Positions 38,665-45,157 of a stretch of 64,000 nt of DNA are shown piece by piece. The position numbers were made by a program, and so were the translations under genes. How positions within the stretch are numbered: position 1 is the stretch's first letter; each line of letters opens with the position of its first letter. The DNA lies in contig NZ_JACATN010000001.1 in NCBI RefSeq assembly GCF_018603515.1, forward strand, positions 682,001 to 746,000, written 5' to 3'. Below the pieces are notes generated by a model, which ran no database searches, was not told the origin of the DNA, and worked only from the letters and a program-made list of their open reading frames with translations. Source of the stretch: Zobellia barbeyronii. Its GTDB lineage: Bacteria; Bacteroidota; Bacteroidia; Flavobacteriales; Flavobacteriaceae.

Positions 38665-39273
38665 ATGGCTTTTGAACTACCTAAATTACCTTATGCATAT
38701 GATGCATTGGAACCACATATTGATGCTAGAACAATGGAGATTCACCATACAAAACACCACAACGGTTACACAACCAAATTAAACGGTGCTATTGAAGGTA
38801 CTCCGTTAGAAGGCAAATCAATAGAAGATATCTTAGAGAACTTAGATATGTCTAACGGTGCAGTTAGAAACAATGGTGGTGGTTTTTACAACCATTCTCT
38901 TTTCTGGGAAGTTATGTCTCCTAATGGAGGTGGAAACCCATCTGGCGAACTTGCTTCTGCCATAGACAGCGCTTTTGGTTCTTTTGAAGGCTTTAAAGAA
39001 AAATTTAGCGGTGCTGCAGGTACTCGTTTTGGTTCTGGTTGGGCTTGGCTTTGTGTACACAAAGGAGGTAAATTAGAAATATGTTCTACGCCTAACCAAG
39101 ACAATCCATTAATGCCGGAAACCGGTTGTAGCGGTTTTCCTATTTTAGGTCTTGATGTTTGGGAACATGCGTACTACCTAAACTACCAAAATAAGAGACC
39201 AGATTACATCAATGCTTTTTTCAATGTTATTAATTGGGATAAAGTAGCTGAACTATACGCTGCCAACAAATAA
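38665..39273 (+). CDS. sodB: Superoxide dismutase (Fe/Mn family)
   Basis: Dismutates superoxide in the cytoplasm. The 202-residue protein has the four metal ligands His27, His77, Asp164 and His168 (DVWEHAYY), and the usual opening [27 protein letters not shown] and the position of Gly in the active-site region fit the Fe/Mn superfamily; which metal is used cannot be told from sequence. A strong terminator follows. It is monocistronic. Confidence 0.97.
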
Positions 39274-39310
39274 GAGCAGAGTAAGCGTTCTCTTTAAATA
39301 AAGAAGAATT

Positions 39311-39349
39311 AAAAAACCCATCCTGATTTGCTTCAGGATGGGTTTTTTT
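39311..39349 (+). terminator. Intrinsic terminator of sodB
   Basis: Perfect stem of about 14 bp (AACCCATCCTGA/TCAGGATGGGTT core) with TTTGCT loop and a T7 run. It is about 38 bp after the sodB stop. Confidence 0.88.
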
Positions 39350-39364
39350 GTCTTTTAAAAATAG

Positions 39365-39436
39365 AAAAGGGCGGAGTAAACTCCACCCTTTTCGTCCCAA
39401 ATCTTACCATAAACTTAACCTACTTATGCTATGGCG
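39365..39436 (-). ncRNA. Tandem small RNA, copy A
   Basis: The leftmost and most divergent copy of the array. On the minus strand: -7 box TATTTTAG (39440-39447), 5 bp, then the conserved block from CCATAGC to the TTTGGG word, then the stem GGGTGGAG/CTCCGCCC with a T-run. The stem has a U-G pair on the minus strand, while the plus strand would have a C-A mismatch, so the minus strand is the transcribed one. Confidence 0.55.
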
Positions 39437-39559
39437 ATACTAAAATACTGGTATTGTGGGAAATAAAAAAGAAATATTCAGGGTTTTTTTTCAACTGAAT
39501 TGTTGATAAAAAACATTGAACATGCCTTAAGGCCGCATGTTTACGAGGATTTTGACAAT

Positions 39560-39631
39560 AAAAAAGGCGGAGCATAGCTCCACCTTTTTCCCCAAATCTT
39601 ACCATGAACTTAACCTACTTATGCTATGGTC
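39560..39631 (-). ncRNA. Tandem small RNA, copy B
   Basis: On the minus strand: perfect -7 box TACTTTTG (39635-39642), GAGGA, conserved block CCATAGCATAAGTAGG...ATGGTAAG (39591-39629), then the terminator GGTGGAGC/GCTCCGCC with a T6 run. Again one stem pair is U-G only on the minus strand. The ~200 bp upstream (right) are almost identical to those of copy C. Confidence 0.65.
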
Positions 39632-39805
39632 CTCCAAAAGTACTGCTACATAAGTCATTTAAAAAAGGTTTTGGACAAACGTTCAAAACTCTAGTTGAAA
39701 TACATTTTCGACTAAAATCACTCGCTTTTTGTATAGAAAAATGAAAGTTGAAAAAAGAGGAATATATAAGCGGAGAATGCTTGTTTGAAGAAAGTATAGA
39801 AAATA

Positions 39806-39876
39806 AAAAGGCGGAGTATAAACTCCGCCTTTTCCCCAAATCTTACCATGAACTTAACCTACTTATGCTATGGTCC
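39806..39876 (-). ncRNA. Tandem small RNA, copy C
   Basis: Perfect -7 box TACTTTTG (39880-39887), conserved block 39836-39874, and a fully paired terminator stem GGCGGAGT/ACTCCGCC (39811-39830). It is spaced 246 bp from copy B and 244 bp from copy D. Confidence 0.65.
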
Positions 39877-40049
39877 TCCAAAAGTACTGCTACATAAGTC
39901 ATTTAAAAAAGGTTTTGGACAAACGTTCAAAACTCTAGTTGAAATACATTTTCGACTAAAATCACACGCTTTCTGAATAGAAAAATAGAAAGTTGAAAAA
40001 GAGGAATATATTGTGTGGAGAAATCTTGTTTAGGGAAAATATAGAAAAT

Positions 40050-40121
40050 AAAAAGGCGGAGTATAAACTCCGCCTTTTTCCCCAAATCTTACCATGAACT
40101 TAACCTACTTATGCTATGGTT
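40050..40121 (-). ncRNA. Tandem small RNA, copy D
   Basis: Best promoter of the set: a TTTG word on the minus strand (forward 40151-40154), 18 bp, then TATCTTTG (40125-40132). The conserved block is at 40081-40119 and the terminator GGCGGAGT/ACTCCGCC at 40055-40074. It is nearly identical to copy C downstream of the -7 box. Confidence 0.65.
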
Positions 40122-40312
40122 CTCCAAAGATACAGTGGCATTGATCTATACAAAAACATCTTTGCCAAACTGTACGAAAATCGGTTAAAGAGTTCATCAA
40201 TGAACGATGAATGACCAACACGGTCAAAAAACAAATAAACAAAGAGAATTCTAGATTTTATGGAGAGGTCGTAAAGCGAATGTGGAAATAACTTTACAAA
40301 ATAGCGGAAAAT

Positions 40313-40383
40313 AAAAAGGTGGAGAAATCTCCACCTTTTTGCCCCAAATCTTACCATGAACTTAACCTACTTATGCTATGGCA
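40313..40383 (-). ncRNA. Tandem small RNA, copy E
   Basis: The copy nearest purF. -7 box TACATTTG (40388-40395), conserved block 40343-40381, terminator GGTGGAGA/TCTCCACC: here the variable stem pair is U-A, where copies C and D have C-G and copies A and B have U-G. Flanking DNA is unlike that of the other copies, so it is not just recent duplication that keeps the core. Confidence 0.65.
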
Positions 40384-40441
40384 AGACCAAATGTAATCTG
40401 ACCTCCGCCCAAGCGGCTAAAAAAACGCCAAATAGCCAATA

Positions 40442-40481
40442 TTATCGATGAAATACCTTTATTAGTGCATTTCATCGATAA
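40442..40481. repeat. 13-bp perfect inverted repeat after purF
   Basis: Arms TTATCGATGAAAT (40442-40454) and ATTTCATCGATAA (40469-40481) around a 14-nt loop, 6 bp after the purF stop on the minus strand. There is no T-run, so it is not a standard terminator. It may be an RNA 3'-end stabiliser or a protein site. Confidence 0.6.
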
Positions 40482-40487
40482 GGTTAA

Positions 40488-42386
40488 TTAATACGCGCGT
40501 TCGCTCTTGCCTTCATAAAAGTTAATAAAGGCTCTATTTACTACTCGGTTACCACCCGGGGTTGGGTAGTGTCCGGTAAAATACCAATCTCCTAAATTGT
40601 CTGGACAAGCTTCATGCAGTGCCTCTACGGTTTGGTAGATAATCTCAACTTCTGCGTTAATACCTTCTGGACTTAACAACTCTCCTGTTTTTGCTGATAT
40701 TTCTTCCGCAGTAAATGGCGCATAGAATTCTCTTACGTAATTAATTACATCCGTATCCTTATTATTAACCTGTTTTAAACACTTATCATAAATGTCATCC
40801 ACTATATTCATAGTGAGTCGCTCTTCATGTAAAGCTAGAGCCGCTTTAAAAGCAATAAAGTCTTCCAACTTGGCCATATCAATACCGTAGCAATCAGGGT
40901 ATCTAATCTGCGGAGCAGATGATACAACTATTATCTTTTTTGGAGACAACCTATCTAAAATCCGAAGTATACTTTTCTTTAAAGTCGTTCCTCTTACGAT
41001 ACTGTCATCTATAATAACTAGGTTATCACCTTTCTTTACTGATCCGTAAGAAATGTCATATACGTGTGCAACAAGATCATCTCTGCTACTATCTTGCGTA
41101 ATAAAAGTACGAAGCTTCGCATCTTTAATTGCTACTTTTTCGATTCGCGGACGAACCTCTAAAATTTCATGAAGCTCTTCACTTGTAATTTTTGAACCTA
41201 TAGCAAGTATTTGTTCTTCCTTTCTTTTATTCATGTAATTCTGCGCTTCCCTCACCATTCCAAAAAAGGAGGTTTCGGCAGTATTAGGAATGTATGAAAA
41301 GACAGTATTTTTTATATCGTGATCAATAGACTTCAATATTTGTGGAAAGAGAAGTCTTCCTAATTTCTTTCGTTCTTCATAGATTTCTTTATCACTTCCC
41401 CTAGAAAAATAGATTCGTTCAAATGAACATGCCTTACGCTCGGTAGGCTCTAATATTTCGGTTACAGCAGAAGACCCATCCTTTTTAATAATAATGGCAT
41501 GACCTGGATCAAGTTCTTTAACCTCTTCAAAAGGCACATTAAATACAGTCTGTATAGCAGGACGTTCAGAAGCAACAACGACCACTTCATCATCTTGGTA
41601 ATAATAAGCTGGTCTGATCCCAGCAGGATCTCTAAGTACAAAAGCATCTCCATGACCTAAAAGACCGGCCATAGCATAACCACCATCCCAGTTTTTAGCA
41701 GCTCTTCTTAATATTTTATGAAGTTTAAGACGCTCTGCTATAATGGGTGAAGCTTCTTGTTTTGTATATCCTTCTTTTTTGATTTGCTTGTACAGCTTAG
41801 CAACAGCATCATCTAAAAAATGACCTATTTTCTCCATTACGGTTACTGTATCCGCCATTTCTTTAGGGTGCTGCCCTATTTGAATCAGATTATCAAACAG
41901 CTCATGAACATTGGTCATGTTAAAGTTACCTGCAACAATAATGTTACGATGCATCCAATTGTTCTGTCTTAAAAATGGGTGAACACTTTCAATACTGTTC
42001 TTTCCAAAAGTACCATAACGCACATGTCCTAAAAGCACCTCGCCTATATAAGGAATGTTCTTTTTCTGTGCAGCAACATCATCAACATACTCTGGGTGCT
42101 CCTGAAGTGTTGAGTTTATGCGATCATTAATTTGCGCAAAGATATCCTGTATAGGCTGCTGCGCGATTGACCGCACTCGGCTCATGTAACGTTCACCTGG
42201 AGCAACATCTAATTTAATACTAGCAAAGCCCGCACCATCTTGACCACGATTGTGCTGCTTTTCCATCATTAAGTACATTTTATTAACCCCGTAAAAGGCT
42301 GTACCGTACTTCTCTTTGTAATACTCTAACGGTTTAAGTAACCGTATTACCGAAATACCACATTCATGTTTGATCGCGTCACTCAT
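40488..42386 (-). CDS. purF: Amidophosphoribosyltransferase (PurF), long form
   Basis: PurF transfers the glutamine amide to PRPP, giving 5-phosphoribosylamine, the first step of purine synthesis. The 632-residue protein is longer than the ~500 residues of E. coli and matches the long Bacteroidota form. Cys9 (HECGIS) is the glutaminase nucleophile after propeptide removal; NRGQDGAGF follows. The PRPP motif is VIIDDSIVRGTT. A terminator hairpin (42402-42426) stands between the pfkB-type gene and purF, and no clear promoter follows it, so purF may depend on read-through or on a promoter inside the kinase gene. Confidence 0.94.
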   Translation of the reverse strand: MSDAIKHECGISVIRLLKPLEYYKEKYGTAFYGVNKMYLMMEKQHNRGQDGAGFASIKLDVAPGERYMSRVRSIAQQPIQDIFAQINDRINSTLQEHPEYVDDVAAQKKNIPYIGEVLLGHVRYGTFGKNSIESVHPFLRQNNWMHRNIIVAGNFNMTNVHELFDNLIQIGQHPKEMADTVTVMEKIGHFLDDAVAKLYKQIKKEGYTKQEASPIIAERLKLHKILRRAAKNWDGGYAMAGLLGHGDAFVLRDPAGIRPAYYYQDDEVVVVASERPAIQTVFNVPFEEVKELDPGHAIIIKKDGSSAVTEILEPTERKACSFERIYFSRGSDKEIYEERKKLGRLLFPQILKSIDHDIKNTVFSYIPNTAETSFFGMVREAQNYMNKRKEEQILAIGSKITSEELHEILEVRPRIEKVAIKDAKLRTFITQDSSRDDLVAHVYDISYGSVKKGDNLVIIDDSIVRGTTLKKSILRILDRLSPKKIIVVSSAPQIRYPDCYGIDMAKLEDFIAFKAALALHEERLTMNIVDDIYDKCLKQVNNKDTDVINYVREFYAPFTAEEISAKTGELLSPEGINAEVEIIYQTVEALHEACPDNLGDWYFTGHYPTPGGNRVVNRAFINFYEGKSERAY

Positions 42387-44923: not shown

Positions 44924-45157
44924 ATGTCAGACATTGCATCAAGAGTAAAAGCTATCATCGTTGATAAATTAGGTGTGGATGAGAACGAAGTAGTAACGGA
45001 AGCTAGCTTTACTAACGACTTAGGCGCAGATTCATTGGATACCGTGGAATTAATCATGGAATTCGAAAAAGAATTTGACATCCAGATTCCAGACGATCAA
45101 GCTGAGAACATCGCAACAGTTGGCCAAGCCATTAGCTATATAGAGGAAGCGAAGTAA
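44924..45157 (+). CDS. acpP: Acyl carrier protein
   Basis: A 77-residue acidic carrier of growing acyl chains in fatty-acid synthesis. The phosphopantetheine serine is Ser37 in [15 protein letters not shown]. It leads the set acpP-fabF-rnc. An attenuator-like terminator separates it from fabF, which would keep ACP in excess. Confidence 0.98.

Follow-up and report, generated by a model that had tools for sequence, protein, structure and literature searches.

Multicopy small RNAs (sRNAs) of Bacteroidota include FopS of Bacteroides, which comprises 14 paralogous copies with sigma-ABfr promoters and terminators, carries its seed in an unpaired 5′ stretch, pairs near the start codons of outer-surface mRNAs and represses their translation, is tied to RbpB, and is reported as conserved within Bacteroidaceae (PMC11697453). 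In Vibrio cholerae, the sponge QrrX pairs with a conserved segment of the Qrr sRNAs and has a community and surface link, with Qrr driven by LuxO and QrrX by the LysR protein QrrT (PMC9732341). Among flavobacteria, Rfp18 of Flavobacterium psychrophilum acts on mRNAs of secreted proteins, with which it pairs through its third stem-loop (PMC9723704). These accounts are drawn on in part, and the comparisons below extend to those parts. Flavobacteriaceae are a major component of communities in soil, seawater, and fresh water and count pathogens of fish among their members, and to our knowledge few of their RNA regulators have been characterized.

The window analyzed here, a stretch of 64,000 nucleotides from Zobellia barbeyronii, carries five sRNA genes in tandem between a superoxide dismutase gene and purF. 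The array RNA is like FopS in coming from Bacteroidota, in being multicopy with promoters and terminators, and in its predicted pairing near start codons of surface-protein genes. It is unlike FopS, as far as that source describes it, in standing in tandem at one locus, in having a 5′ hairpin (predicted in 5/5 copies) followed by a linker, in giving strong matches only in Flavobacteriaceae, and in its company of LytTR-type repeats and multi-site sponges; this comparison is by description, the array RNA having no Rfam match at threshold. A preliminary description of the locus had likened it to Qrr-type sets, and this holds as an analogy but not as homology, given the absence of an Rfam match and the different promoters: LuxO-dependent Qrr promoters are of the sigma-54 type, whereas the array promoters have TAnnTTTG-type boxes. 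As with Qrr and QrrX, there are several related sRNAs and putative sponges that would pair with a conserved segment, with a link to the cell surface; unlike what is described for that pair, a LytTR-type repeat stands before the sRNAs as well as before some putative sponges and one or more candidate targets, and five sites were counted in one sponge. Like Rfp18, the array RNA is flavobacterial with secreted-protein mRNAs as candidate targets, but it is predicted to have one hairpin plus a terminator and is set apart by description from Rfp18, with its three or more stem-loops. In the parts of the literature covered we found no published description of the array RNA, which could be an unnamed transcript among the sRNAs listed for F. 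psychrophilum (PMC9723704, Table S8) or F. columnare (PMC5395568).

The reading that we favor as probable is that a LytTR-driven array of base-pairing sRNAs would control translation of surface proteins and be buffered by multivalent sponges. A near-invariant sRNA present in 120/148 genera, with a transcription factor that tracks it, would provide an entry to post-transcriptional control of gliding and of type IX secretion system (T9SS) surface proteins, and the array together with its sponge-like RNAs would be a natural system in which to ask why bacteria balance sRNA copies against sponges.

The five-copy array

The features of the array are as follows, with bit scores that are given by construction because the same five copies built the covariance model.

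38665–39273, plus strand: superoxide dismutase (“sodB”), conserved convergent downstream neighbor; best NCBIfam match of the Mn type
39363–39435, minus strand: small RNA copy 5, nearest sodB; 89.3 bits
39559–39630, minus strand: small RNA copy 4; 98.4 bits
39804–39874, minus strand: small RNA copy 3; 93.2 bits
40050–40120, minus strand: small RNA copy 2; 99.2 bits
40310–40382, minus strand: small RNA copy 1, nearest purF; start predicted at ~40382, terminator to ~40310; 92.9 bits
40488–42386, minus strand: purF, conserved upstream neighbor; named by family search and similarity

The preliminary description reported five minus-strand copies, each with a −7 box, a conserved block, and a terminator, lying between sodB and purF, and all of this is borne out. 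The boxes, for copies 1–5 from the purF side, are TACATTTG, TATCTTTG, TACTTTTG, TACTTTTG, and TATTTTAG, and the block occurs as an exact 39-mer five times on the minus strand (39396–39434, 39591–39629, 39835–39873, 40081–40119, and 40343–40381), compared with no match at up to three mismatches in 100 dinucleotide shuffles. The neighbors match dismutase and purF, although both fall under the equivalog model cut-offs, so that their names rest on similarity. In all five copies the predicted fold has a hairpin at the 5′ end, joined by an unpaired linker to the terminator hairpin, with z from −3.9 to −5.1 and none of 200 shuffles equaling the stability of any copy.

Over 450 upstream regions the promoter consensus, with base frequencies, is T88% A91% n n T99% T92% n G74%, and the array boxes resemble TAnnTTTG, given as the sigma-A consensus of F. 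psychrophilum in the part of the source used (PMC9723704). Conservation in these regions resumes one base before CCATAGC, and the RNA is therefore predicted to start about there and to be about 70 nt long, as had been proposed. Copy 5 has a promoter, CACAATACCAGTATTTTAG, unlike those of copies 1–4.

A core of ~35 nt, which includes both hairpin arms, is nearly invariant among 454 de-duplicated copies from the family, part of them retrieved by the exact core pattern. When 129 distinct copies were aligned by fitting to the model, the terminator helix showed two-sided changes in 10 of its 12 pairs, with a covariation score reached by 0/500 shuffles, and the 11-pair 5′ hairpin showed no two-sided changes, one-sided changes in two pairs, and rare mismatches in three. 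All five Zobellia copies share the start ATG GTA AGA TTT GGG, but one A of codon 3 is present in 276/454 and missing in 172/454 family copies, which shifts the frame, so that no protein frame is kept, again as first described. Taken together, the core, the terminator covariation, the locus, the lack of a frame, and the absence of an Rfam match at threshold leave independent sRNA genes, each with its own promoter and terminator, as the best, though predicted, reading.

A comparison with Rfam, including Flavo-1, had been suggested as a check. At gathering thresholds, Rfam 15 gave a tRNA alone in the window and no match in the array. A permissive search of positions 39300–40500 returned 98 matches, all of which were rejected as family identities because every one was below its cut-off, and Flavo-1 was absent from them. 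The array RNA represents a highly conserved and apparently unnamed RNA family of Flavobacteriaceae.

Distribution and locus conservation

The five copies are the only ones in their own genome, and the array was present in 9/9 genomes of the genus that were searched. A wider model search, also proposed earlier, matched 121/149 Flavobacteriaceae genomes (120/148 genera), mostly in the purF–sodB gap, under strict filters by which some weak matches were lost. An order-wide sample of 196 genomes gave a strong match in 26/30 family genomes among those listed, matches of 29–38 bits in eight genomes outside the family, and none in 142 genomes, while strong matches in a phylum-wide sample of 247 genomes were found solely in Flavobacteriaceae, with seven others at 30–35 bits. 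We took the matches outside the family (29–38 bits) as terminator-like chance matches. The exact 21-mer of the core was found in at least 117 stretches in named genomes, including Maribacter, Aquimarina, Winogradskyella, and Flavobacterium.

Among 209 loci, some sharing a genome, purF was upstream on the same strand in 189; in 171 the dismutase followed downstream in the opposite orientation. Both flanks were present in 158 and neither in seven. Clusters of one, two, three, four, five, and six copies numbered 44, 42, 31, 17, 10, and 1, respectively, among the 145 clusters that remained after de-duplication and showed both flanks; the median copy spacing was 209. Tandem, near-identical copies could also be a functionless repeat or a mobile element, but this explanation has next to no chance and is already contradicted by the fixed purF–sodB place across genera, by the retention of a promoter and a covarying terminator, by the lack of further copies in the genome, and by the lack of any exact match of the core 21-mer in the viral contig collection.

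The upstream repeat and a probable LytTR regulator

A feature that the preliminary description did not mention is a phased 20-bp direct repeat of the GCATTTCATCNAA type upstream of the promoters of copies 1–4 and of most copies elsewhere. Its half-sites, TTNRWCNAA, start 20 bp and sometimes 21 bp apart, and a tandem repeat with at least 15 of 18 positions occurs in 334/450 upstream regions versus 46/450 that were mononucleotide-shuffled. LytTR sites are described, in the portion of the source covered, as two 9–11-nt repeats with 11–13 spacer nt, and in Escherichia coli the YpdB protein binds repeated GGCATTTCAT (PMC4847170); the spacing of the array repeat agrees with that description. A position weight matrix (PWM) built from 306 upstream regions located the following sites in the window.

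39663–39702, minus strand: LytTR-type tandem site upstream of copy 4; 28.2 bits
39907–39946, minus strand: LytTR-type tandem site upstream of copy 3; 28.2 bits
40153–40192, minus strand: LytTR-type tandem site upstream of copy 2; 23.0 bits
40416–40455, minus strand: LytTR-type tandem site of copy 1, weak and 1 bp farther upstream than in copies 2–4; 16.7 bits
44844–44883, plus strand: LytTR-type tandem site before an acyl carrier protein gene; 24.3 bits

The upstream region of copy 5 scores 0.4 bits and is without the repeat. The distance from site to core is 42–43 bp in the 11 site-bearing copies listed. Sites of at least 15 bits precede single copies in 35/44 clusters, first copies in 79/101, middle copies in 85/99, and last copies in 53/101, rates that carry some circularity, the PWM having been built from selected regions of this kind; other upstream regions in the same loci gave none (purF 0/109, dismutase 0/167, pfkB-type kinase 0/58, and fabF 0/31). 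A AATACCAGTA promoter is found in 42/101 last copies versus 1/244 other copies, and the last copy, copy 5 in the window, would be driven by a separate promoter. By eye, the interval from purF to copy 1 contains an inverted repeat, TTATCGATGAAATGC...GTATTTCATCGATAA, at about 40435–40485 on the minus strand, whose two arms resemble half-sites in opposite orientation.

On its own, the tandem pattern shows no enrichment in the genome (18 matches versus 24 for the reversed control), and for this reason regulon candidates were kept only if intergenic and of high PWM score, which left the acyl carrier protein gene (acpP) and locus L289 (loci and genomes are designated here by L and G numbers). The acpP gene, named by eye at 44924–45157 on the plus strand, has the upstream site in 11/35 related loci in addition to the window and is a possible, if unexpected, member of the LytTR regulon.

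The genome encodes 14 LytTR proteins. For comparison, 16 family genomes were sampled, eight with the sRNA and eight without it and most of them small, and 30/48 LytTR matches were fetched. In a tree of 44 proteins, Zobellia L262, L263, and L270 belong to a clade of 10 proteins (support 100/99) with members from 7/8 sampled sRNA-bearing genomes and none, among the 44 proteins, from an sRNA-negative genome; the eighth sRNA-bearing genome, G067, has an L262 ortholog by profile search. Seven of the 10 genes, not including L263 and L270, lie between S6 (rpsF) and priA and one lies beside priA, with S6 and priA confirmed by family search at L262, L331, and L334, and priA at L335. Like YpdB and AgrA, the orthologs combine receiver and LytTR domains, and they would act on direct repeats about two helical turns apart with half-site GCATTTCAT, compared with GGCATTTCAT of YpdB (PMC4847170, in part). 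Unlike YpdB and AgrA, the gene stands beside rpsF and priA, no kinase gene was seen in the 3-kb loci, and the aligned receiver position that we take to be the phospho-acceptor Asp is S, T, or E in 6/10 proteins (L331, L334, L335, L340, L343, and L263). Our search found no literature on a LytTR gene with rpsF and priA. Autoregulation was considered and rejected: the best site in 14 LytTR loci scored 13.2 bits and none reached 15.

A LytTR profile run over the 149 genomes was bimodal (E ≤2e-85 or ≥2.6e-71). Counting genomes as independent, 117 had both sRNA and LytTR ortholog, four the sRNA only, two the LytTR only, and 26 neither (Fisher 1.2e-22); in genomes at least 90% complete the corresponding counts were 108, 0, 1, and 17. 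All four sRNA-only genomes are <90% complete, and the LytTR-only genomes are G017 and G119, the latter 64% complete. In 99%-complete G017 the ortholog is kept and the model finds no sRNA, which may have diverged or been lost.

This pattern could be because certain lineages lost both genes together while the repeat serves another DNA-binding protein. Such shared loss would fit with the often small size of sRNA-negative genomes and with co-occurrence statistics that ignore kinship, but we consider it quite unlikely, as G032 and G138 are sRNA-negative yet large and complete with other LytTR proteins, G040 and G126 are likewise with other LytTR proteins by weaker profile matches, and small genomes that keep the sRNA keep the L262-type LytTR. 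In G053, G099, and G144 the single PF04397 match falls within the L262 clade and is the sole LytTR protein, and in all three the sRNA promoters have the repeat, 42 bp ahead of the core; that of G053 is a double ATGCATTTCATCTAAAAAA. The geometry and half-site of the repeat also fit LytTR sites as described (PMC4847170, in part). Most likely, then, a LytTR-type response regulator, the L262 ortholog without an adjoining kinase, would bind the 20-bp repeat and turn on copies 1–4.

Complementary stretches

The sRNA has two conserved segments available for predicted pairing, the hairpin loop with the 3′ arm (AGUAGGUUAAGUU) and the linker (GAUUUGGGG). The preliminary description had put forward the loop UAAGUAGG for target searches, which is indeed part of the first segment, and had missed the linker; it foresaw neither sponge RNAs nor LytTR-type control. 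The 11-mer ACTTAACCTAC, complement of the loop side, has three matches in the genome outside the array, all of them outside genes: one precedes a PorP/SprF gene, another the gene for a T9SS type-B protein, and the third lies in a sponge-like stretch. As a bare sequence it is not enriched (three matches versus 10 for the reversed control), and neither is the bare repeat; the case rests on position and conservation.

The sponge-like noncoding stretch contains CCCCAAATC-N7-GAACTTAACC, which matches the complements of the two sRNA segments in collinear order, together with further sites and promoter-like and terminator-like parts; it was read in seven Zobellia genomes and assigned by position in two more. 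Four such two-module stretches occur in the genome, with duplexes of −34 to −37 kcal/mol and 0/300 shuffles as strong. For five sponge-like stretches the duplexes were −34 to −39 kcal/mol, as strong as none of 300 shuffled sRNAs and none of 296–299 random stretches of the window. Across the 149 genomes, the two-module pattern gave 13 matches in nine genomes versus one reversed-control match, and the CCCAAATC pair 62 matches in 44 genomes versus eight in seven for the reversed control. The pair was found in 44/121 sRNA-positive versus 0/28 sRNA-negative genomes (Fisher 1.9e-5, genomes counted as independent), a contrast that is partly one of genome size because sRNA-negative genomes are often smaller and the seven reversed-control genomes are all sRNA-positive too.

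Among the matches of the pair, 54 places were examined: 39 were intergenic and 15 coding, in loci that were 80% ORF-covered, and the median duplex was −33.7 kcal/mol for intergenic versus −25.3 for coding places. A site of at least 15 bits was upstream of 10/39 intergenic versus 0/15 coding places, a modest excess (Fisher 0.046). The coding matches, and L314, were taken as chance. The sponge pattern was also present in 55 IMG/VR viral contigs; it was set aside there because, by rough estimate, chance alone could give as many.

The resulting class comprises predicted transcripts with complementary stretches, mostly intergenic, many multi-site, and several with promoter-like or terminator-like flanks. 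Several genera share a sponge form in which a LytTR-type repeat is followed by at least two tandem sites that are nearly antisense to the sRNA. By masking, L395, L400, L408, L474, L386, and L313 have three to five sites, five being the maximum, L476 and L404 have two, and L479 has one, compared with at most three for shuffled sRNAs; these counts leave out L475, L320, L319, and L318, for which masking gave 0, probably because it stops at duplexes of >60 nt. By eye, the multi-site sponge seems to stand at one conserved place in L404, L395, L400, L408, L474, L386, and L313, and similar sequence, of the ATTCATG-TATA ... GCATGAAT type, follows it.

The Zobellia-type sponges score <15 bits upstream. 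Their promoters have a second direct repeat, TTCACAACA twice ~21 bp apart, which ends at a TAATTTAG-like box and lies ~90 bp before the first sponge site (L317, L320, L321, L318, L319, L316, L315, and others). A different regulator is therefore likely, which suggests a second input to the Zobellia-type sponges.

RNAs present in several copies can act by titrating a protein, as in CsrB and RsmZ, where RNA copy number sets the amount titrated. The array RNA could similarly act mainly by binding a chaperone or regulator through its invariant hairpin and linker, with copy number setting the titrated amount, which would account for a ~35-nt core with both arms nearly invariant, beyond the need of the pairing segments alone, and for the lack of two-sided changes in the 11 pairs of the first hairpin. 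A protein decoy would not be expected to have intergenic stretches and leaders that are complementary, in collinear order, to two of its segments, and these occur in sRNA-bearing genomes only, and we regard this explanation as distinctly improbable; protein binding on top of base pairing is possible. Under the base-pairing reading, the intergenic RNAs with up to five complementary sites would titrate the sRNA as sponges and set a threshold for its action.

Candidate targets and the proposed circuit

The sRNA would pair through its loop and 3′ arm and its linker with leaders of exported, T9SS-related surface-protein mRNAs. In Zobellia, the PorP/SprF gene (Pfam and NCBIfam above cut-off) has a complementary site about 14–24 nt before its ATG, read in seven Zobellia genomes and by position in two; its duplex is weak, with 8/300 shuffled sRNAs and 14/299 random stretches of the window pairing as well. 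The leader of the T9SS type-B protein gives −34.6 kcal/mol, with 0/300 shuffles as strong, and is preceded by a tandem repeat of 22.5 bits; orthologous leaders were read in G001 and G006. In other genera, L310, L311, and L312 have duplexes of −28 to −32 kcal/mol, with 0/300 shuffles as strong and with two, zero, and one random stretches, respectively, of 297–298 pairing as well.

Sites lie within about 40 nt of the start codon or across it in L289, L290, L311, and L312, and 130 and 185 nt before it in L310 and L383. An alternative that bears on this is that the sponge-like RNAs are the true regulators and the array RNA their decoy, or that the surface mRNAs are activated, not repressed, by pairing. 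Base pairing is symmetric, two protease mRNAs decrease on loss of Rfp18 in the part of the report covered (PMC9723704), and the L310 and L383 sites are far from the usual position for repression, all of which would suit this alternative. It is nevertheless unlikely: the array RNA is found in 121/149 genomes versus at most 44 and nine for the two sponge patterns, chance matches included, which makes it the more constant partner, and the sites in L289, L290, L311, and L312 are close to or across the start codon. That sRNA pairing would hinder translation of the surface-protein mRNAs is the sign of control that we infer as most likely.

By score, the tandem repeat accompanies ten sponge-like places and one target or more; by eye it is seen at four further targets, and for this reason one regulator may drive all of them. 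A single LytTR protein driving the sRNA, sponges, and some surface genes may form a feed-forward loop with a threshold. An extended version, which is possible but somewhat short of an even chance, is a family-wide circuit of three layers in which an orphan LytTR protein, often with its phospho-acceptor replaced, would directly activate the sRNA array, the sponges, and the targets, and in which RNA stoichiometry, not phosphorylation, would select among T9SS-exported adhesins and glycan-active proteins.

The repeat in target promoters was identified by score in L289 and by eye in the others; L311, L312, L469, and L486 have half-site-like repeats upstream by eye, none of them reaching 15 bits. 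Among the candidates from genera other than Zobellia, L311 matches an NCBIfam pectate-lyase model below cut-off and has a cadherin-like domain, L469 has CBM96, L486 is chondroitinase-B-like, L310 has FG-GAP, L383 has DUF11, and L312 matches no family. By eye, L311, L469, L486, and L312 look like lipoproteins.
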